Made by a program: the position numbers and the translations under genes | Origin: Streptomyces sp. NBS 14/10 | GTDB lineage: Bacteria; Actinomycetota; Actinomycetes; Streptomycetales; Streptomycetaceae | DNA length: 13,574 nt | Assembly: GCF_002224125.1 (NCBI RefSeq) | Contig: NZ_NCSM01000045.1 | Span: forward strand, 41,238-54,811 | Reading direction: 5' to 3' | Part shown: piece after piece, positions 268-13,347 of the stretch | How positions within the stretch are numbered: position 1 is the first letter of the stretch | How the letters are laid out: every line of letters begins with the position of its first letter | Notes under the pieces: generated by a model | Seen by the model: only the letters and a program-made list of their open reading frames with translations | Databases searched by the model: none | Told to the model about the DNA's origin: nothing

Positions 268-585
268 ATGGTCGGCGGACGCGCCCGCGCACGCTCCCCC
301 AGGCAACTGACCAGTGATCCGGAAGCCTGGCCCGAACACCCCAGCCCCGACCCCGGAGCAGAGGCGGTCCGCCAGATCGCCCGCACCCTTGACCAAGCCC
401 TGGCCGACCAGGGTTTGAGCCTGCGGGCGGCCGCGGCCGGCTCCGGCGTCAACCGGCAGGCCATCGCTGACCTGCTGGCCGGACGGTCCTGGCCGGACGT
501 GGCCACCATCGCCCGGTTGAACGCCTTCACCGGGATCCGCCTGTGGCCGCAGCAGCCCACTTGTGACCGGAAGAGGGAACAATGA
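268..585 (+). CDS. Small helix-turn-helix (XRE-like) DNA-binding protein
   Basis: A 105-residue cytoplasmic protein with a predicted HTH at about residues 49-80. Within it SLRAAAAGSGVNRQAIADLL reads as helix 2, turn and recognition helix, followed by GRSWPDVATIARLNAFTG. This matches the start of the lambda-repressor/Cro fold, where 'AxxxGVxxxxIxxLxxGRxxPxxxTIxRL' is typical. The first 35 residues are proline- and arginine-rich and look disordered. The ATG at 268 is the only good in-frame start, with GAGAGGACGG about 8-17 bases upstream acting as a weak Shine-Dalgarno. The stop overlaps the start of the next small ORF (ATGA at 582-585), so translation of the two is probably coupled. It lies beside a broken transposase. 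It could be a regulator of a lost neighbour; the target is unknown. Confidence 0.72.
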   Translation: MVGGRARARSPRQLTSDPEAWPEHPSPDPGAEAVRQIARTLDQALADQGLSLRAAAAGSGVNRQAIADLLAGRSWPDVATIARLNAFTGIRLWPQQPTCDRKREQ

Positions 586-674
586 GCCTCGATTCGCACC
601 TGGATTCGCACGATCGCGACCAGGACAGGACGAATTCGCAGCTCCGCTCGCCGAGTGGAGAAGACCCCCACTAA
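582..674 (+). CDS. Possible 30-residue peptide translationally coupled to the HTH gene
   Basis: The ATG at 582-584 overlaps the TGA (583-585) of the preceding HTH gene in an ATGA arrangement, with AAGAGGGAAC just upstream as a ribosome binding site. The ORF ends at TAA 672-674. The product begins MSLDSHLDSHDRDQDRTNSQ and is very hydrophilic, rich in Asp, His, Arg and Ser, with no membrane segment or recognised domain. The strong hairpin at 719-749 follows it and would end the transcript. ATGA coupling plus a terminator right after argues for a real gene, but at 30 codons chance cannot be excluded. Confidence 0.35.
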   Translation: MSLDSHLDSHDRDQDRTNSQLRSPSGEDPH

Positions 675-718
675 CCTCGGACGTGCGAGAGCCACCTTTG
701 CGGGACGCTCAAGCAACC

Positions 719-749
719 GGCACCGCCGAGCTGAACCCTCGGCGGTGCC
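719..749. terminator. Hairpin terminator between convergent genes
   Basis: A perfect 12-bp stem, GGCACCGCCGAG (719-730) paired with CTCGGCGGTGCC (738-749), closes over a 7-base loop. There is no long T run, which is usual for actinobacterial terminators. It sits between the plus-strand HTH unit ending at 674 and the minus-strand gene ending at 801, so it probably serves both directions. Confidence 0.8.
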
Positions 750-800
750 AGCCTCTTCGCCGCCAGGCTAGGCATGAAGACCAGCCCGGCGGACGTTTTA

Positions 801-1328
801 TCAGCCCACCCCGGACTCCTCTCGGCGCTCGCTGTCGGCATGCGAGATGGAGAACCAGGCCGTGGGGCCCTCGACCGCCCGGCCTTCCTTCACCAGTTTC
901 TTGAGTCGGGAGCGAGTCGTCTCCACCCGCCGCGCGTTGGACGTGCCCTCGCCGATCGCTGCAGCGATGTCCTGCACCTTCATGGCCCGCCCGGCACCCG
1001 CCAAGAGCACCAGCATCCGCTCCCGCGCCGTTTCCAGGTCCACCGGGCCGGGCGTCTGCGGTGCCTCCGCTGTCTGGGCGCCCTCACCAGCAGCCCCTTT
1101 CCCATCACTGGCACTCTGACTGGCTGCAGGGCTCTCGGCAGCCCACGGCTCTTGGGTTTGGGGTTCGTCACGGTGAGAGCTTTCACTCATCAGCGACAGC
1201 GCCGTCTCACGCGTAATCGCCAGGCGAGCCAGCCACTGTTCTGTCGCGGCGACCTTTTCGCGCAGAGCAGCCAACTCGCCGCGGGCGACGGCTTCTTCCT
1301 CGTCCAACCGCTTGAAAAGTGGCGTCAT
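801..1328 (-). CDS. Coiled-coil plus winged-helix protein of unknown function
   Basis: A 175-residue protein in three parts. Residues about 5-42 (FKRLDEEEAVARGELAALRE, then WLARLAITRETA) form a charged coiled coil. Residues 48-95 are a low-complexity Gln/Ala/Ser/Pro linker. Residues 98-160 (LETARERMLVLLAGAGRAMK, then IAAAIGEG and VETTRSRLKKLVKEGRAVEG) read as a winged helix with a final wing strand AWFSI. I recognise the layout from hypothetical proteins common in Streptomyces, often near transposases, but know no function for it. The start chosen is ATG 1326-1328, with AGGAGG 11 bases upstream; a longer reading frame extends to 1556 but lacks coding character before this point. It may be a DNA-binding accessory protein or regulator, which is inference only. 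Confidence 0.65.
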   Translation of the reverse strand: MTPLFKRLDEEEAVARGELAALREKVAATEQWLARLAITRETALSLMSESSHRDEPQTQEPWAAESPAASQSASDGKGAAGEGAQTAEAPQTPGPVDLETARERMLVLLAGAGRAMKVQDIAAAIGEGTSNARRVETTRSRLKKLVKEGRAVEGPTAWFSISHADSERREESGVG

Positions 1329-1442
1329 CGTCAGCTCTGCCTCCTGCCCCGACGTGCAGGCCCCGACGCAAGGACCGCCAGAGCCATTGACCCACCGTAG
1401 AAGAGCACGCCACAAGATCGCAGAAGGTGATCGCCAATGATC

Positions 1443-1479
1443 CCTAACGACAACTACCGTCTGGACGCTGTGCGTTAGG
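1443..1479. repeat. Inverted repeat in the gap upstream of the lipoprotein
   Basis: CCTAACG (1443-1449) and CGTTAGG (1473-1479) are perfect inverted copies. The stem extends inward as ACA/TGT if one base is bulged. The 23-base loop region has no coding sense. It lies 115 bp behind the start of the minus-strand gene at 1328. It could be a small hairpin or the footprint of an old element; its role is unknown. Confidence 0.3.
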
Positions 1480-1536
1480 TGACCAGGCCGGACTGGCGAG
1501 GATCGAAGCCCGTGCGTCACGTCGACTGCCGCTCGC

Positions 1537-1555
1537 TGTCCACCACAAGTGGACA
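1537..1555. promoter_or_regulatory. 19-bp perfect dyad, probable repressor operator upstream of the lipoprotein gene
   Basis: TGTCCAC, five bases (CACAA), then GTGGACA form a perfect 7+5+7 palindrome whose right arm ends 73 bases before the lipoprotein start. The size and symmetry suit a dimeric HTH regulator. It lies upstream of a poor promoter-like stretch (TAGCGT near 1586). The regulator that binds it is not identifiable here. Confidence 0.4.
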
Positions 1556-1628
1556 AATCGCGCTCCCACCCTCGGCGGTTGCGGCTAGCGTCTACCTGAC
1601 CCGTACAGACAGCTCAGAGGAGGCACAT

Positions 1629-2342
1629 GTGGCTGCACTCATGCGACGGATGACAGCAAGTAACGCGGTGATCGCCGGAATGCTCGTCGTCTCCGCTTGC
1701 TCAACCGAAGAAGCGGCAAGCCGCCCAACGGCGACCCCGGCCACGGAAGCACCCTCGAGAACCTCAAGACCCCCTTTAACTGCCGAGCAGCTGAAGGCAC
1801 TCGCCCTCAAGGACAGGGATGTGCCACAGGCCCACGACGTGCCTGTGCAGGATCCTCTTCCAGAAAGCGAGCAACGCACATACCCGCCCGTCTCGGATGC
1901 CTCTTGCCAGAGAGTCCTTGACGTGCTTGACGCCGAGAACGCGTCCGCCGTCGTGCTCCAGATCTTCAATTGGAAGAAGAACATCATGGGGGGCGGGTCC
2001 ACGCTGGCTTCGTACGACGACACGAAGGCAGAAGGGGCCTTTCAAGAGCTTCATGACTCGCTCACGACCTGCAGGTCCTTTACGGGAGTCGGCCAGTTCG
2101 GGAAGTTCAACGCCAAGATCGCCCTGGAGAAGGCCCCCGATGTCGGAGACGAGGCCCTCAGTTTCCACCTGACCATGCCGCTGCCGGACGGAGGTGGGCT
2201 TCGGGATGAACACCATGTTTTCGTGCGGACAGGCAACGTCACAGCGAGTTTCGCAGAACTGAACATAGGTGAGAAAGCTCAGTTCCCCCTCGTCCTCATC
2301 AACAAGCAGGTCGACCGGCTGGCTACCGCCCAGCGTCCCTGA
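1629..2342 (+). CDS. Secreted lipoprotein, possible PknH-like extracellular sensor domain
   Basis: A 237-residue protein with an N-terminal lipoprotein signal: basic MRRM, a hydrophobic core, then the lipobox V21-S22-A23-C24. After cleavage, C24 would be lipidated and the protein anchored outside the membrane. Residues 25-50 are a Ser/Thr/Pro/Ala tether. The folded part from about residue 50 contains two cysteines (C93 and C148), well placed for a disulfide. This arrangement resembles the small extracellular sensor (PknH C-terminal-like) domains of actinobacterial lipoproteins, a loose resemblance that I could not confirm. The start is GTG 1629, six bases after AGAGGAGG; an ATG at 1627 is out of frame, and the next in-frame ATG (1641) would also keep the signal. 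Codon 50 is TTA (1776-1778), so expression may depend on the bldA tRNA. It stands alone. Confidence 0.75.
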   Translation: MAALMRRMTASNAVIAGMLVVSACSTEEAASRPTATPATEAPSRTSRPPLTAEQLKALALKDRDVPQAHDVPVQDPLPESEQRTYPPVSDASCQRVLDVLDAENASAVVLQIFNWKKNIMGGGSTLASYDDTKAEGAFQELHDSLTTCRSFTGVGQFGKFNAKIALEKAPDVGDEALSFHLTMPLPDGGGLRDEHHVFVRTGNVTASFAELNIGEKAQFPLVLINKQVDRLATAQRP

Positions 2343-2366
2343 CCGGCCACATCCCTCGACGGCCGG
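2343..2366. terminator. Weak candidate terminator after the lipoprotein gene
   Basis: CCGGCC (2343-2348) and GGCCGG (2361-2366) can pair over a 12-base loop directly after the TGA stop. The stem is only 6 bp but all GC. Confidence 0.3.
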
Positions 2367-2712
2367 CCTTCCGGGAAACGATCAGTTGGCGGATGGGGAG
2401 CGATCTTCAGGCGAGCGCGAAGCCGCTGGCAGAGGACACTCGTGAACAGTCCCTTTGAGTGGTCACTCTCAGTCCCATACCTGCCGACACCGGCAGCAGT
2501 CTGGCTGCTGTCGCTGGGGTTCATGATCGACACACTGGGCTAGCGGGCTGTCCTGCCAGGTAGAGCGACCGTTCACTTTCAGTGAAGGTGTGCTTGCCGA
2601 GAACGTCATCCACCCTGGTCGGAGGCCTGTATCGGGACCGGCGGTCGTCGGCCTCGCCGCCCGGGTAGGCGCCCTCGCGTAGTCGGTGGTTCACGCGTCA
2701 TGATGATCGATC
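2367..2712. other. Gene-free gap with one hairpin at 2568-2589
   Basis: No convincing gene lies between the lipoprotein and the transposase. A 33-codon frame from GTG 2442 to TAG 2543 has a weak AGAGGA upstream and a hydrophobic stretch, but nothing else supports it. At 2568-2589 ACC-g-TTCACT, three bases, AGTGAA-GGT makes a 9-bp stem with one bulge. It lies about 125 bases before the transposase start and could be a leader hairpin or operator of the insertion sequence. I could not find the element's terminal repeats. Confidence 0.4.
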
Positions 2713-3810
2713 GTGCTGCTGCGACTGGCCTACCTGAGCGTGACTAACGTGTTCGCGCTGCTTCGTCTGCTGTCGATGAGCGACCGGAACAAGGATGCGG
2801 AGATCCTGGCTCTCCGTCATCAGATCACGGTGCTCGAACGCCAACTCGACGGTGCCCGAGTACGGTTCACTGCGAGCGACCGGGCGTTCCTGGCGGCGCT
2901 GCTGCATCGGATACCGTTGCCCGCCCTGCGGCGTCTGCGACTGCTCGTACGTCCTGACACAGTGCTGCGCTGGCATCGTGACCTTGCCAGGCGTCGGCAT
3001 GCCGCCTTATCGCGATCCAAGCGACCCGGTCGGCCTCGTACCGTGCGCTCCATCCGCATTCTGGTGCTGCGTCTGGCGAGGGAGAATCCGAACTGGGGCT
3101 ACAGGCGTCTGCACGGCGAATTGCTCGTGCTGGGAGTGAAGGTGGCCGCATCGACCGTCTGGAAGATCCTCAAGGATGCCGGCATCGATCCGGCGCCCGA
3201 CCGGAGCTCCAGCACCTGGGCCGACTTTCTACGCTCCCAAGCCGACGCTCTCCTGGCCTGCGACTTCTTTGAGACGGTCACCCTGTCCGGCGCGCGAATG
3301 TATGTACTCGCGGTGATCGAGCACAGCAGCCGTCGCATCCGGATCCTGGGCGCCACCGCACACCCGACCACCTCCTGGGTAAGACAGGCTGCGAAGAACC
3401 TGGTCATGGACATCGAGGACGTCGACTGCCGGGCACGATTCATGATCCATGATCGGGACGGGAAGTTCCCTCAACTGTTCGACACCGTCCTCAAGGAGGC
3501 GGGGATTGAGGTCGTCCTCACCGGCATCCAGATGCCGAGAATGAACTCGGTCATGGAACGGTGGGTGCAGACCTGCAGACACGAGCTCCTGGACCGAACA
3601 TTGATATGGAACCAGCGCCACCTCCTCCACGTACTCCGGGAGTTCGAACAGTTCTACAACACACACCGACCGCACCAGGGCATAGCGAACGCCCGACCGC
3701 TACACCCACTGCCGACACCAATCCACCATCGGGACAAGCTAAGCCACCTCGACATACGACGCCACGACCGCCTTGGCGGCATCCTCCACGAATACAAACA
3801 TGCCGCGTGA
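2713..3810 (+). CDS. Integrase-core (DDE) transposase, complete
   Basis: A 365-residue transposase of the actinobacterial integrase-core (IS3/IS481-like) type, which cuts and joins its element's ends. The N-terminal part carries [17 protein letters not shown] (about residues 28-44). A linker ENPNWGYRRLHGEL (about 124-137) follows, of the kind that precedes the rve core. The catalytic triad is visible: D184 (LLACDFFETV), D247 (MIHDRDGKF) and E282 (MNSVMERWVQT), with the canonical 35-residue D-E spacing. The C-terminus FYNTHRPHQG is typical. The start is GTG at 2713; no in-frame ATG lies close upstream. One TTA codon (L99) is present. The element appears to have landed in, or beside, the Tn3-type transposase remnant that begins about 10 bases after its stop. 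Length and motifs suggest it is still active. Confidence 0.92.
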   Translation: MLLRLAYLSVTNVFALLRLLSMSDRNKDAEILALRHQITVLERQLDGARVRFTASDRAFLAALLHRIPLPALRRLRLLVRPDTVLRWHRDLARRRHAALSRSKRPGRPRTVRSIRILVLRLARENPNWGYRRLHGELLVLGVKVAASTVWKILKDAGIDPAPDRSSSTWADFLRSQADALLACDFFETVTLSGARMYVLAVIEHSSRRIRILGATAHPTTSWVRQAAKNLVMDIEDVDCRARFMIHDRDGKFPQLFDTVLKEAGIEVVLTGIQMPRMNSVMERWVQTCRHELLDRTLIWNQRHLLHVLREFEQFYNTHRPHQGIANARPLHPLPTPIHHRDKLSHLDIRRHDRLGGILHEYKHAA

Positions 3811-7054: not shown

Positions 7055-7060
7055 TCGCTA

Positions 7061-8300
7061 GTGCTCTGACCGGGAAGGTTCGCCGGGGCGGTCGTCCGGG
7101 CGGTTGGATGCACGGTGACGACGTCCGCTCTGACCGCTGGGGGTGTAGTGGCTGAGCTTGTCCATGTGCGCAGGTTGACCGACCAGGAGGGGCAGAAGCT
7201 GCCGCAGATCGTGCGCCGGGGCAGCAGCAGTTCGGTGCGCTACCGGCGCGCGATGATGCTGCTGGCCTCGGCCAGCGGGAACCGGGTGCCGGTGATCGCG
7301 AAGCTGGTGCAGGCCGACGAGGACACCGTCCGCGACGTGATCCACCGGTTCAATGAGATCGGCCTGGCCTGCTTGGACCCTCGGTGGGCGGGAGGCCGTC
7401 CCCGCCTGCTCAGTCCTGACGACGAGGACTTCGTCATCCAGACGGCCACCACCCGCCCGAGCAAGCTCGGCCAGCCCTTCACCCGCTGGTCCATCCGCAA
7501 GCTCGCCGCCTACCTGCGGAGAGTGCACGGCCGTGTCATCCGGATCGGCCGCGAGGCGTTACGGTGCCTGCTCGCCCGCCGCGGTGTCACCTTCCAGCGG
7601 ACCAAGACGTGGAAGGAGTCGCCTGACCCCGAGCGCGACGCCAAGCTGGACCGCATCGAGGAGGTGCTGGAGCGTTTCCCGGATCGTGTATTTGCGTTCG
7701 ACGAGTTCGGGCCCCTGGGCATCCGGCCCACCGCCGGGTCGTGCTGGGCCGAGCAAGGCCGGCCCGAGCGGCATCCCGCGACTTACCACCGCACCCACGG
7801 GGTGCGGTACTTCCACGGTTGCTACTCGATCGGCGACGACACCCTCTGGGGCGTCAACCGCCGCAGGAAGGGTGCCGCGAACACCCTGGCTGCGCTGAAG
7901 TCGATCCGGACCGCCCGCCCGGACGGCGCCCCGATCTACGTGATCCTGGACAACCTGTCCGCCCACAAGGGCAGCGACATCCGCCGCTGGGCGAAGAAGA
8001 ACAAGGTCGAGTTGTGCTTCACCCCGACCTACGCCTCGTGGGCCAACCCCATCGAGGCGCACTTCGGACCGCTTCGCCAGTTCACCATCGAGAACTCGCG
8101 CTACCCCAACCACGCTGTGCAGACACGGGCCCTGCACGCCTACCTCCGCTGGCGCAACGCCAACGCCCGCCACCGCGATGTCCTGGCTGCCGAACGCAAG
8201 GAGCGCGCCCGCATCCGCAGCGAGAAAGGGATCCGCTGGGGCAGACGCCCCCTCGCCACCGCAGGCTGAACGATCCAACGAATCCACGCGGTCACAGCCC
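7061..8300 (+). mobile_element. IS630-family insertion sequence, intact
   Basis: The left end is GTGCTCTGACCGGGAAGG from 7061, right after a TA dinucleotide (7059-7060). IS630/Tc1 elements duplicate TA on insertion. The right end, read inward from 8300, is GGGCTGTGACCGCGTGG. The two 24-base ends agree at 16 positions. The length is 1240 bp with a single transposase gene. The right flank is TG rather than TA, so the target duplication is not perfect or the end lies slightly elsewhere. A better partner for the left end lies at 9796-9821. Confidence 0.75.
7148..8269 (+). CDS. IS630-family transposase, complete
   Basis: A 373-residue transposase. The N-terminal half is a double helix-turn-helix region: RYRRAMMLLASASGNRVPVI, then QADEDTVRDVIHRFNEIGL, then the GGRPRLLS hinge. 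The catalytic DDE core contains D185 (FAFDEFGPLG), D268 (IYVILDNLSAHKG) and E303 (SWANPIEAHFG), with 35 residues between the last two as in the DD35E group of this family. The start is uncertain: GTG 7148 gives the family-like beginning MAELVHVRRLTDQEG with GGGGG four bases upstream, while GTG 7115 would add 11 residues with no clear ribosome binding site. Codon 138 is TTA. All catalytic residues are present, so it may be active, and it could act in trans on the IS630-like end at 9796-9821. Confidence 0.92.
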   Translation: MAELVHVRRLTDQEGQKLPQIVRRGSSSSVRYRRAMMLLASASGNRVPVIAKLVQADEDTVRDVIHRFNEIGLACLDPRWAGGRPRLLSPDDEDFVIQTATTRPSKLGQPFTRWSIRKLAAYLRRVHGRVIRIGREALRCLLARRGVTFQRTKTWKESPDPERDAKLDRIEEVLERFPDRVFAFDEFGPLGIRPTAGSCWAEQGRPERHPATYHRTHGVRYFHGCYSIGDDTLWGVNRRRKGAANTLAALKSIRTARPDGAPIYVILDNLSAHKGSDIRRWAKKNKVELCFTPTYASWANPIEAHFGPLRQFTIENSRYPNHAVQTRALHAYLRWRNANARHRDVLAAERKERARIRSEKGIRWGRRPLATAG

Positions 8301-8348
8301 TGGCGAGCAGGGGTTCACCGGGCAGGCGAACCGCTCGTGACCATGGAC

Positions 8349-8762
8349 TCATGTGGGCGAGAGCATCTCCTGAAGGATGCGCTGCAGCTCGGTGCGGTCC
8401 CGCGGAGTGATCCTCGCCAGCCTGCGGTCGTACTCCGCCGCGAGGGCTGCAAGTGCACGATCCCGTGCCTCTGTGCCCTCAGCGGTTAGTACGAGCCGGT
8501 GACGCCGCAGGTCCGCGTCGTCGATCTCGCGCCGGATGAACCCCTTGGCGACGAGGTTGCGGACGTAGACCGTCACGCTCGCTTTGGGGAGCAGCAGTGC
8601 CGTCGCGATCTGGGCCGGGTACGGCGATGCCTCCACCTCGGCCAGGACGAAAAACTCCTTCGTCTCCAACCCGAGCTCGGCCAGCTCCCCCGTGCAGGCA
8701 TCCATCACAACGCCCAGCAGCCGCTGGTTCAGCGTCCACAGCTGCGCCCCGTCGACTGACAT
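8349..8762 (-). CDS. MarR-family transcriptional regulator
   Basis: A 137-residue winged-helix repressor of normal MarR length. The N-terminal helix contributes to the dimer interface. YPAQIATALLLPKASVTVYV (48-67) is the HTH, with the recognition helix around KASVTVYVRNLVAKGF. The wing is IRREIDDADLRRHRLVLTAEG (76-96), containing the conserved D-x-R-R. The C-terminal helices 97-135 complete the dimer. The start is ATG 8760-8762, with GGAGGGG four bases upstream. It is divergent from the hydrolase gene at 8871, with palindromic sequences between, so it probably represses the hydrolase and itself until a small molecule binds. One cysteine (C23) lies in the N-terminal helix; redox sensing is possible but unsupported. 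It is convergent with the IS630 transposase, 79 bases away. Confidence 0.92.
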   Translation of the reverse strand: MSVDGAQLWTLNQRLLGVVMDACTGELAELGLETKEFFVLAEVEASPYPAQIATALLLPKASVTVYVRNLVAKGFIRREIDDADLRRHRLVLTAEGTEARDRALAALAAEYDRRLARITPRDRTELQRILQEMLSPT

Positions 8763-8792
8763 GCGACCCCTCCATCCATGTGGTACAGTTTC

Positions 8793-8832
8793 ATATTAGT
8801 TCCAGATCGTACAATACATTGTCTTGTACTGG
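8793..8832. promoter_or_regulatory. MarR-type operator and divergent promoter region
   Basis: GTACAA (8809-8814) and TTGTAC (8824-8829) are perfect inverted half-sites centred 10 bases apart-plus-spacer, with CAATACATTG as a further palindrome inside. Flanking CCAG (8802-8805) and CTGG (8829-8832) extend the symmetry. On the minus strand TAATAT (8793-8798) is a good -10 box for marR. The block is the most AT-rich part of the 108-bp gap between marR and the hydrolase gene. MarR proteins typically bind such dyads of 16-22 bp overlapping promoters; the assignment rests on that pattern. Confidence 0.65.
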
Positions 8833-8870
8833 ACTCCTATGGAACAACAATCTCACGAAGGAAGCCAGGC

Positions 8871-9785
8871 ATGCTTAAGCACCTCACGATCCCGCGCGGT
8901 CCCATCAACCTCGCCGCGGACCTCCACCTGCCCGACAACGCCGACAGCAGCGCACCGCTGCGCGCCGTGGTGCTCTCCACCCCGGGCAGTAGCGTGAAGG
9001 AGCAGATCGGCGCCAATTACGCCTCCCGTCTCGCTGCCCGCGGCATCGCGGCGCTCGTCCTCGACCCCGCCCATCAGGGTCAGAGCGAGGGCGAGCCCCG
9101 CGACCTCGAAGACCCTTACCGCCGAGGTGAGGACATCTCCTACGCCATCGACGTGCTCACCACGGCCCCCGGCATCGACCCGCAGCGCATCGGCGTCCTC
9201 GGCATCTGCGCCGGTGGCGGCTACGCCGTGCACACCGCTCGCACGGACCACCGCATCAAGGCGGTCGGCACGGTCGTCCCCGTCAACATCGGCGCCGCGT
9301 TCCGCAGCTTCTCCCTCGACGGTCCGGCCGCAGCACTCGACGCCCTCGCGGACGCACGGACCGAAGAGGCCCGCTCCGGCGAGACGACCCGCGTGAACTG
9401 GCTGCCCGACACCCTGGAGGACGCCACAACAGCGGGCCTGACCGACATCGACACCACTCAGGCCGTCACCTACTACCGCACCGAGCGCGGCGGTAACGAA
9501 CACTCCACGAACCGGCGCCTCTTGCGCAGCGACTCCCTCCTGCTGGGCTACGACGCGTTCCACCTGGCCGATCGGCTCATGACCCAGCCACTCCAGGTCA
9601 TCCTCGCCGGACGCATCGGCAACACCGGCTCCTACGACACCGGCATGCAGCTGTGGAAGCTGGCCCCCGACCCCGTCGACCTCATGGTGATCGACGGCGC
9701 CGGCCACTACGAGATGTACGACGAACCCGAATACGTCGACGCTGCCGTCGAACGACTCACCAGCTTCTATGCGAACAACCTGTAA
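8871..9785 (+). CDS. Alpha/beta hydrolase with a cysteine nucleophile (dienelactone-hydrolase/YcjY-like)
   Basis: A 304-residue cytoplasmic alpha/beta hydrolase. After an N-terminal strand pair (KHLTIPRGPINLAADLHLP), RAVVLSTPGSSVKEQIGANY holds the oxyanion-side loop. ALVLDPAHQGQSEGEPR follows, and the nucleophile elbow is VLGICAGGGYAV. Here the family's usual G-x-S-x-G is G-I-C-A-G, with C113 in place of serine, as in dienelactone hydrolases and YcjY-type proteins. H279 in VIDGAGHYEMYD is the probable catalytic histidine, with an acid from the 240-260 region. A lid-like insertion lies between about 145 and 235. No signal peptide is seen. The start is ATG 8871, eight bases after AAGGAAG; an upstream in-frame ATG at 8778 would cover the operator and is unlikely. 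It is divergent from marR and probably its target. The substrate is unknown. Confidence 0.85.
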   Translation: MLKHLTIPRGPINLAADLHLPDNADSSAPLRAVVLSTPGSSVKEQIGANYASRLAARGIAALVLDPAHQGQSEGEPRDLEDPYRRGEDISYAIDVLTTAPGIDPQRIGVLGICAGGGYAVHTARTDHRIKAVGTVVPVNIGAAFRSFSLDGPAAALDALADARTEEARSGETTRVNWLPDTLEDATTAGLTDIDTTQAVTYYRTERGGNEHSTNRRLLRSDSLLLGYDAFHLADRLMTQPLQVILAGRIGNTGSYDTGMQLWKLAPDPVDLMVIDGAGHYEMYDEPEYVDAAVERLTSFYANNL

Positions 9786-9795
9786 GGCATCCGAA

Positions 9796-9821
9796 CCGGC
9801 GAACCTATGCGGTCACAGCAC
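9796..9821 (+). repeat. IS630-type terminal inverted repeat, outward-facing to the right
   Basis: Read on the minus strand it begins GTGCTGTGACCG and ends GGTTCGCCGG. It agrees at 22 of 26 positions with the left end of the IS630 element (7061-7086). It starts ten bases after the hydrolase stop. One base further on, an internal IS630 fragment begins. Confidence 0.65.
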
Positions 9822-9822
9822 C

Positions 9823-10016
9823 CGCGTGATCCGGAGCGGCCGGGAAACGTTACGGTGCCTGCTCCGGCGCCGCGGGATCACCTTCCAGCGCACGAAGACC
9901 TGGAAAGAGTCGCCCGATCGCGAACGCGACGCCAAGCTCGACCGGATCGAGCACGTGCTGGAGCACTTCCCTGACCGGGTCTTCGCCTTCGACGAGTTCG
10001 GCCCCCTGGGCATCCG
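9823..10016 (+). pseudogene. IS630-family transposase, internal fragment
   Basis: About 65 codons (RVIRSGRETLRCLLRRRGIT, then FQRTKTWKESPDRERDAKLD, to FAFDEFGPLGIR) correspond to residues 129-193 of the intact transposase at 7148-8269 with about ten replacements. It therefore comes from a second, diverged copy rather than a recent duplicate. The fragment carries only the first catalytic aspartate. The left side is joined directly to a terminal repeat. The right side is interrupted exactly at the TGAAGGGTGTC end of another insertion sequence at 10017. An open frame running on to 10203 is a chance fusion. Confidence 0.88.

Positions 10017-10356
<340 letters not shown>

Positions 10357-12139: not shown

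Positions 12140-13347
<1,208 letters not shown>

Follow-up and report, generated by a model that had tools for sequence, protein, structure and literature searches.

A very likely transporter insertion sequence of the IS630 family with a marR-hydrolase pair as cargo, and passengers among its Streptomyces relatives

The DNA analysed here (the window) is a stretch of 13,574 nucleotides from Streptomyces sp. NBS 14/10, and the subject is a unit of 2761 bp within it (window 7061-9821), in which a left terminal inverted repeat (IRL), an IS630-family transposase gene, an apparently decayed internal right end, a marR gene, an alpha/beta hydrolase gene and a right terminal inverted repeat (IRR) follow one another (Table 1). 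The transposase, to which an earlier note on this DNA had ascribed an intact DDE triad, is full length and scores 170.5 bits with the NCBIfam IS630 model NF033545 (cut-off 100) and 60.5 bits with Pfam DDE_3 (cut-off 28.6). The MarR protein matches Pfam MarR_2 (37.7 bits, cut-off 27), and the hydrolase lies above the cut-off for both Pfam Abhydrolase_6 and DLH. Among solved structures the hydrolase is closest to YcjY (PDB 5xb6, E 3.5e-53), whose residues 15-304 align with its residues 11-302. The residue at its nucleophile elbow, as read from the sequence, is a cysteine (GICAGG); dienelactone hydrolases have a cysteine at this position. The hydrolase stop stands 10 bases before IRR, and all three reading frames and both outer ends of the window copy are intact by sequence.

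Table 1. Features of the 2761 bp unit and its borders, in window coordinates
Feature	Position	Strand	Basis
TA target dinucleotide, left flank	7059..7060		read from sequence
Left terminal inverted repeat (IRL)	7061..7086	+	GTGCTCTGACCGGGAAGGTTCGCCGG
IS630-family transposase, 384 aa	7115..8269	+	NF033545, Pfam DDE_3, helix-turn-helix models
Apparently decayed internal right end, outer dinucleotide TG not TA	8277..8302	-	16/24 match to IRL
Passenger 1, MarR-family repressor, 137 aa	8349..8762	-	Pfam MarR_2
Candidate MarR operator GTACAA-N9-TTGTAC, between the divergent genes	8809..8829		sequence
Passenger 2, alpha/beta hydrolase, YcjY type, 304 aa	8871..9785	+	Pfam Abhydrolase_6 and DLH; PDB 5xb6
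Right terminal inverted repeat (IRR), end in use	9796..9821	-	GTGCTGTGACCGCATAGGTTCGCCGG
Second IS630 transposase gene fragment, outside the unit	9822..10016	+	84% identical to 7531-7725

The unit 7061-9821 can very likely be classed as an IS630-family transporter insertion sequence (tIS), the term for an insertion sequence (IS) that has genes with no role in transposition between its ends (PMC3129680, PMC7986276 and PMC9330008, as excerpted). The assignment draws on the outer ends found at 15 loci, the TA flanks at 12 of these, the varied surroundings, an empty insertion site and passengers under purifying selection. That the passengers move along with the ends enclosing them emerges from comparison, namely of contexts, of empty sites and of within-genome duplicates of related units.

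IRL agrees with the reverse complement of IRR at 22 of 26 positions and with that of 8277-8300 at 16 of 24; these counts of the earlier note proved exact on recounting, the internal end being better read as 8277-8302. A repeat search of the window ranked the pair 7056-7091 / 9791-9826 first among 20 inverted-repeat pairs. The end pattern applied to other loci, with up to three mismatches allowed, gave one wrong-orientation match in 289 kb of related loci, one match beyond the chosen right ends in 341 kb (both strands) and no match at all in single-base shuffles totalling 5.8 Mb. The match between IRL and IRR is not chance.

When the marR-hydrolase pair was used as query against 392 Streptomyces genomes, 68 had a match at E 1e-20 or better. 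Many of the strongest matches end at window base 9821 and others at the hydrolase stop; homology between loci likewise ceases at base 9821 in many cases, where the hydrolase has the same 26-base end behind it and this end mostly has a TA and then unrelated sequence next to it. By the end pattern, both ends surround the pair at 15 distinct loci, the window included, eight of which are full length (2754-2761 bp, aligning end to end with the window), six shorter through losses in the transposase part (1626-2568 bp) and one longer (3538 bp). Duplicates were counted once (L040-L043 and L046 repeat L074-L077 and L081, and L175 repeats L082), and L058 and L080, whose ends are imperfect, stand outside the 15. 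IRL is identical or has at most one mismatch in 14 of these loci, and has three in L050. The stretch 7058-9821 occurs as a single block in Streptomyces sp. MP131-18, S. shenzhenensis, ST2-7A, SM10, S. mutabilis, S. globisporus and S. canus, with alignments that break off at both unit ends, so that the larger passenger-bearing IS630 unit proposed in the earlier note, and the recurrence of the pair between IS630-like ends in unrelated contexts for which it had suggested a search, are both supported.

The TA flanks and empty sites that the note had recommended looking for were also found. TA stands on both sides at 12 of the 15 loci, the exceptions being the window (TA left, CC right), L077 (TG left, CA right) and L081 (TA left, TT right); among the seven full-block genomes it does so in six, S. 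globisporus having TA on the left and TT on the right. For the SM10 copy, the flanks joined through a single TA run without a break over 600/600 bases in several further Streptomyces, at 88% in the best match. Some match to the joined flanks at E 1e-30 or better is present in 292 of 295 genomes and is contiguous in part of them, and at the junction, inspected in 12 loci amid small intergenic indels, CTA is aligned in eight and not in four. A related element with another type of cargo (L197) has an empty site in another genome over 500/500 bases at 94%, with CTAG intact. Two species (L058 in G219, L075 in G140) have the unit at one insertion site, the truncated L058 being reduced to the ends and part of the hydrolase.

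Both passengers are free of stops in the aligned frame in all eight full units. The ratio of nonsynonymous to synonymous substitution rates against the window (seven units) is 0.11-0.17 for marR and 0.22-0.33 for the hydrolase, low values which indicate purifying selection. The transposase frame is interrupted in L081 and distributed over two frames in L071. Two-ended forms that lack the transposase occur in Micromonospora mirobrigensis and Nocardia mexicana (L086, L087; 1626 and 1635 bp, TA on both sides), where at most the first transposase bases are left while the passengers and ends are kept. A hydrolase tree of 65 rows was built after exclusion of duplicates, of loci aligned over fewer than 800 bases and of those below 82% identity; its end labels were set by hand, and decayed right ends (L054, L114) were scored as present. 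In this tree the copies from Glycomyces, Nocardiopsis and Micromonospora hosts nest among those of Streptomyces, and the nearest relative of the window copy is that of Glycomyces fuscus (98%).

Several observations weigh against the window unit being a tIS. Its right flank is CC and not TA, the IS630 fragment 9822-10016 starting at the very next base and occupying the place of the right TA (the non-TA flank and a fragment one base on had been reported in the earlier note), and a target duplication of its own cannot be shown. The window copy is a mosaic relative to six other full units, with a break at about 8556: identity is 76-95% per 250-base bin over 7056-8555, which holds the transposase and the end of marR, and 91-97% from 8556 onward, with one bin at 86%. 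The host genome yielded just one full-length match to the window transposase; in its second marR-hydrolase copy (L020, G000:C74:17044-18515, other strand, 88% identical) the right end is decayed, and the 10 kb examined there contain no match to the transposase. For the ST2-7A copy (L076) a search of 81 genomes revealed no empty site, and the best candidate for L180 is partial, with a gap beside the junction. Finally, 31 of the 65 tree rows are without recognised IS630 ends. The earlier note had named pairs without such ends as an observation that would tell against the unit; such pairs do exist, but they do not overturn it, as some of them nest among end-bearing copies while others lie in deeper groups. 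This scatter reads as a loss of ends together with an older end-less stock, many forks of the tree being weak.

Some end-less loci are very similar in the sequence downstream of the pair (L045, L047, L070, L073, L084, L096 and partly L049, in which a relic of the internal end is still visible), and probably mark a settled position. On two Streptomyces plasmids (L037, NZ_CP108219.1; L038, NZ_CP109206.1) an 86-base relic of the IS630 transposase (about 8001-8086) lies to the left of marR and adjoins a catabolic-looking gene cluster, and TA follows the right end; this relic was considered as proof of the whole unit and dropped, as it supports an IS630 neighbourhood only.

The relatives of the transposase were surveyed for passengers of their own. 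To 11 elements already at hand, 80 high-scoring ones were added from the best matches listed (124 of the 392 genomes have a match at 1e-230 or better; at most two places per genome were scored), and after removal of L244 and L245, which repeat L028 and L029, 89 of the 91 remained. A right end was sought within 3.3 kb and cargo was defined as more than 150 bp between the transposase stop and that end. The right end was recognised in 85 elements and not found within this distance in four (L226, L236, L239 and L201, the last of which runs off its contig). Cargo is present in 76 of the 85 and nine are plain, a proportion that describes the elements examined and is not a census, several listed matches having been left out. 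As a rule, the elements examined of this Streptomyces IS630 lineage thus have a passenger placed between the transposase and the right end, and among them the passenger-bearing form, which the earlier note had called unusual, is no oddity. Most relatives at first taken for plain have a clear left end and no right end directly behind the transposase; nine of these have their right end some 500-900 bases farther downstream, with element-specific reading frames in the gap, and L027 is plain. TA follows the right end in 70 of the 76 cargo elements, against a background of 1.2%, precedes the left end in 80 of the 83 distinct elements with both ends, and stands on both sides in 73 of these 83. Four of five relatives in another genus of the same order are plain; the fifth (L249), a 72% relative flanked by TA, has its right end some 620 bases beyond the transposase match, and long forms are therefore not limited to Streptomyces.

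The cargo has a median length of 663 bases (range 290-3100) and falls into 46 clusters by blastn. Its genes were assigned from the best open reading frame (ORF) and Pfam on one representative per cluster, and are best guesses: a family scored above the cut-off in 33 clusters, and in 13 none did in the ORFs searched. Six clusters are GNAT acetyltransferases, five alpha/beta hydrolases (the window type included) and two methyltransferases; other clusters hold immunity proteins (Imm51, Imm53, SUKH-4), an APH-family kinase, glyoxalase, NADAR, LD-carboxypeptidase, OMP decarboxylase, inositol phosphatase, histidine phosphatase, and S1-domain, ABC ATPase and pentapeptide proteins. A chloramphenicol-phosphotransferase-like frame in L232 covers positions 1-100 of a 172-position model only and may be broken, and the cargo of L184 is uncertain, as there are two right-end candidates, at 400 and 3145 bases past the transposase match, of which the far one was used. 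A regulator-enzyme layout as in the marR-hydrolase pair is seen in L195 (HxlR, a short-chain dehydrogenase and a SnoaL-like protein) and in L214 (an ArsR type with an AHSA1 protein). L028 and L029, on two contigs of one genome, are near-identical copies carrying an OMP-decarboxylase/HUMPS-family gene.

Five pairs of elements with the same cargo within one genome, one of which includes L197, were compared. Four show identities of 99.25, 99.80, 99.90 and 100% along the full unit, cargo included, and the fifth one of 89%; in all five the flanks are unrelated (200 bases, no match) and TA stands at every end. Transposase regions of elements with different cargo are up to 94.4% identical (L213 with an acetyltransferase, L217 with a methyltransferase), whereas those with the same cargo go down to 80.9%. 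Six of seven inspected pairs set different cargoes, or a plain and a cargo element, against each other; in these, homology breaks off close to where the transposase region ends, and any resumption falls at an end. From these comparisons, cargo appears to have been exchanged over evolutionary time in the lineage. Our data favour, with some reserve, the wider view that these Streptomyces IS630 elements form a gene-shuttling platform, a transposase module with one exchangeable slot that has repeatedly captured and swapped host genes, and that the marR-hydrolase cargo, at least, has spread between actinobacterial families.

The odds are even that the exchange has proceeded by homologous recombination between elements, with their conserved transposases and ends as the shared sequence, and not through the capture of new genes from the host. 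The mosaic window copy fits recombination as one route of exchange, and so do the breaks near the end of the transposase region, the transposases 94% identical with different cargo, and the occurrence of one cargo cluster on transposases as different as 81%. However, 46 clusters in 76 elements also demand many fresh captures, and a right end of 26 bases is short for recombination.

It is possible, though not the likelier case, that the window unit itself is dead, the remnant of a once mobile unit that persists because of its hydrolase; its rearranged right flank, the adjoining IS630 fragment and its mosaic sequence would agree with this, but the intact outer ends and reading frames described above speak against it. 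If the unit is a working tIS, the transposase would bind the two outer ends, excise the whole 2.76 kb with marR and the hydrolase, and paste it into a TA, the cut-and-paste step being assumed from the IS630 family.

As for how the right end came to lie beyond the hydrolase, several relatives retain an internal end at the position of 8277-8302 (CTAG in L051), and plain relatives have a good end there. The idea that the outer right end is a special left type was dropped, because plain elements such as L174 have near-identical left and right ends, and for the same reason it is through decay of 8277-8302 that IRL now matches 9796-9821 better. The right ends of L115, L069 and L141 (0, 1 and 2 mismatches to IRL) have the GGGAAGG core of the left end and not the usual CATAGG type, and in these the end itself seems to have been exchanged or converted. 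A former internal right end directly after the transposase stop is present with up to five mismatches, a level reached by 0.06% of shuffles, in nine of the 76 cargo elements, three of which share one cargo type, and with up to six in 13; in most cargo elements it is not recognisable. The segment 8277-8302 looks like the former right end of a plain IS630, more decayed than in those nine elements. A plain IS630 would first have landed beside marR, an IS630-type end would then have appeared beyond the hydrolase, from another IS copy or by recombination, and with the decay of the internal end the outer pair would have come into use.

The pair may alternatively have been flanked by two inverted IS630 copies, a composite transposon of which the outer copy was trimmed to its last 26 bases. 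We regard this as rather doubtful. As an origin it would fit one full IS with a solo end, and the former internal ends in nine to 13 cargo elements agree with it; against it, no second transposase remains were seen inside the right end of the window, the one cargo segment scanned, and as a present-day description it fails because there is only an end on the right and not the two whole IS copies of a composite transposon. Least of all is to be said for a stable chromosomal pair between an ordinary IS630 and a leftover end, with nothing moving as a unit, since the end-less copies, several with one common downstream sequence, and the non-TA right flank of the window are outweighed by the constant position of the right end in many loci that have unrelated sequence, usually after a TA, beyond it, by full-length two-ended units in seven other genomes, and by the empty site.

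The window abounds in remains of mobile elements. Two complete transposases, each with an rve_3 integrase core, lie at 2713-3810 (+) and 12158-13276 (-), and a fragment similar by eye to the start of the latter protein is found at about 10083-10320 (+).

With regard to the function of the passengers, the GTACAA half-site of the candidate operator occurs in 13 of the 16 end-bearing loci that were aligned, eight of the 16 having both half-sites exact, and in none of five aligned end-less loci. MarR may repress its own promoter and that of the hydrolase through this operator (8809-8829), and a ligand, perhaps the substrate of the hydrolase, would free it. The pair is accordingly predicted from its sequence to be a ligand-released repressor that controls a detoxifying or scavenging hydrolase.

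The forms found in this lineage range from plain elements over those with a fading internal and an outer end to finished cargo elements and transposase-less cassettes, and since these intermediate stages have all been found, the outward shift of the right end and the swap of cargo are directly testable. IS630 elements are usually treated as bare transposases, and annotation may well take their passengers for ordinary chromosomal genes. If the present picture is true for most members, an IS common in antibiotic producers would be a gene vehicle, also for immunity-like and resistance-like genes.

Compared with known systems, the unit agrees with the tIS in that IS ends enclose genes unrelated to transposition. 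It differs in that an excerpt of PMC7986276 gives a single tIS member for the IS6 family, whereas cargo is the rule here, with 46 clusters in 76 IS630 relatives; the excerpts of PMC3129680, PMC7986276 and PMC9330008 make no mention of an IS630 tIS. With IS630 and its Tc1/mariner relatives the unit shares the NCBIfam IS630 transposase, the DDE_3 domain, the TA target and short inverted ends, but at 2.76 kb and with two passengers it is not the compact, transposase-only form, which is given as about 1.25 kb with one or two ORFs (excerpt of PMC11092175). Among the open-licence papers listed, no report of IS630 passengers in Streptomyces was recognisable by its title or the start of its abstract, ISfinder lying outside this search. 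The tIS category is thus known, while an IS630 lineage with exchangeable cargo as the rule was not met in the literature searched, as far as titles, abstract openings and excerpts reveal.

The forms in Micromonospora mirobrigensis and Nocardia mexicana, in which two IS ends surround the passengers and the transposase is absent, have the make-up of a mobile insertion cassette (MIC), from which the window unit differs by having its own transposase. To our knowledge, known MICs derive from IS families other than IS630. By analogy only, the lineage resembles the gene cassettes of integrons, in which mostly small genes of similar kinds are likewise found, a large variety of them in one type of slot. 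Integrons use a tyrosine recombinase and attC, whereas the elements described here have a DDE transposase and inverted ends, and one cargo locus instead of an array. If the platform view is true, it is tempting to regard these elements as the DDE-transposon counterpart of integron cassettes.

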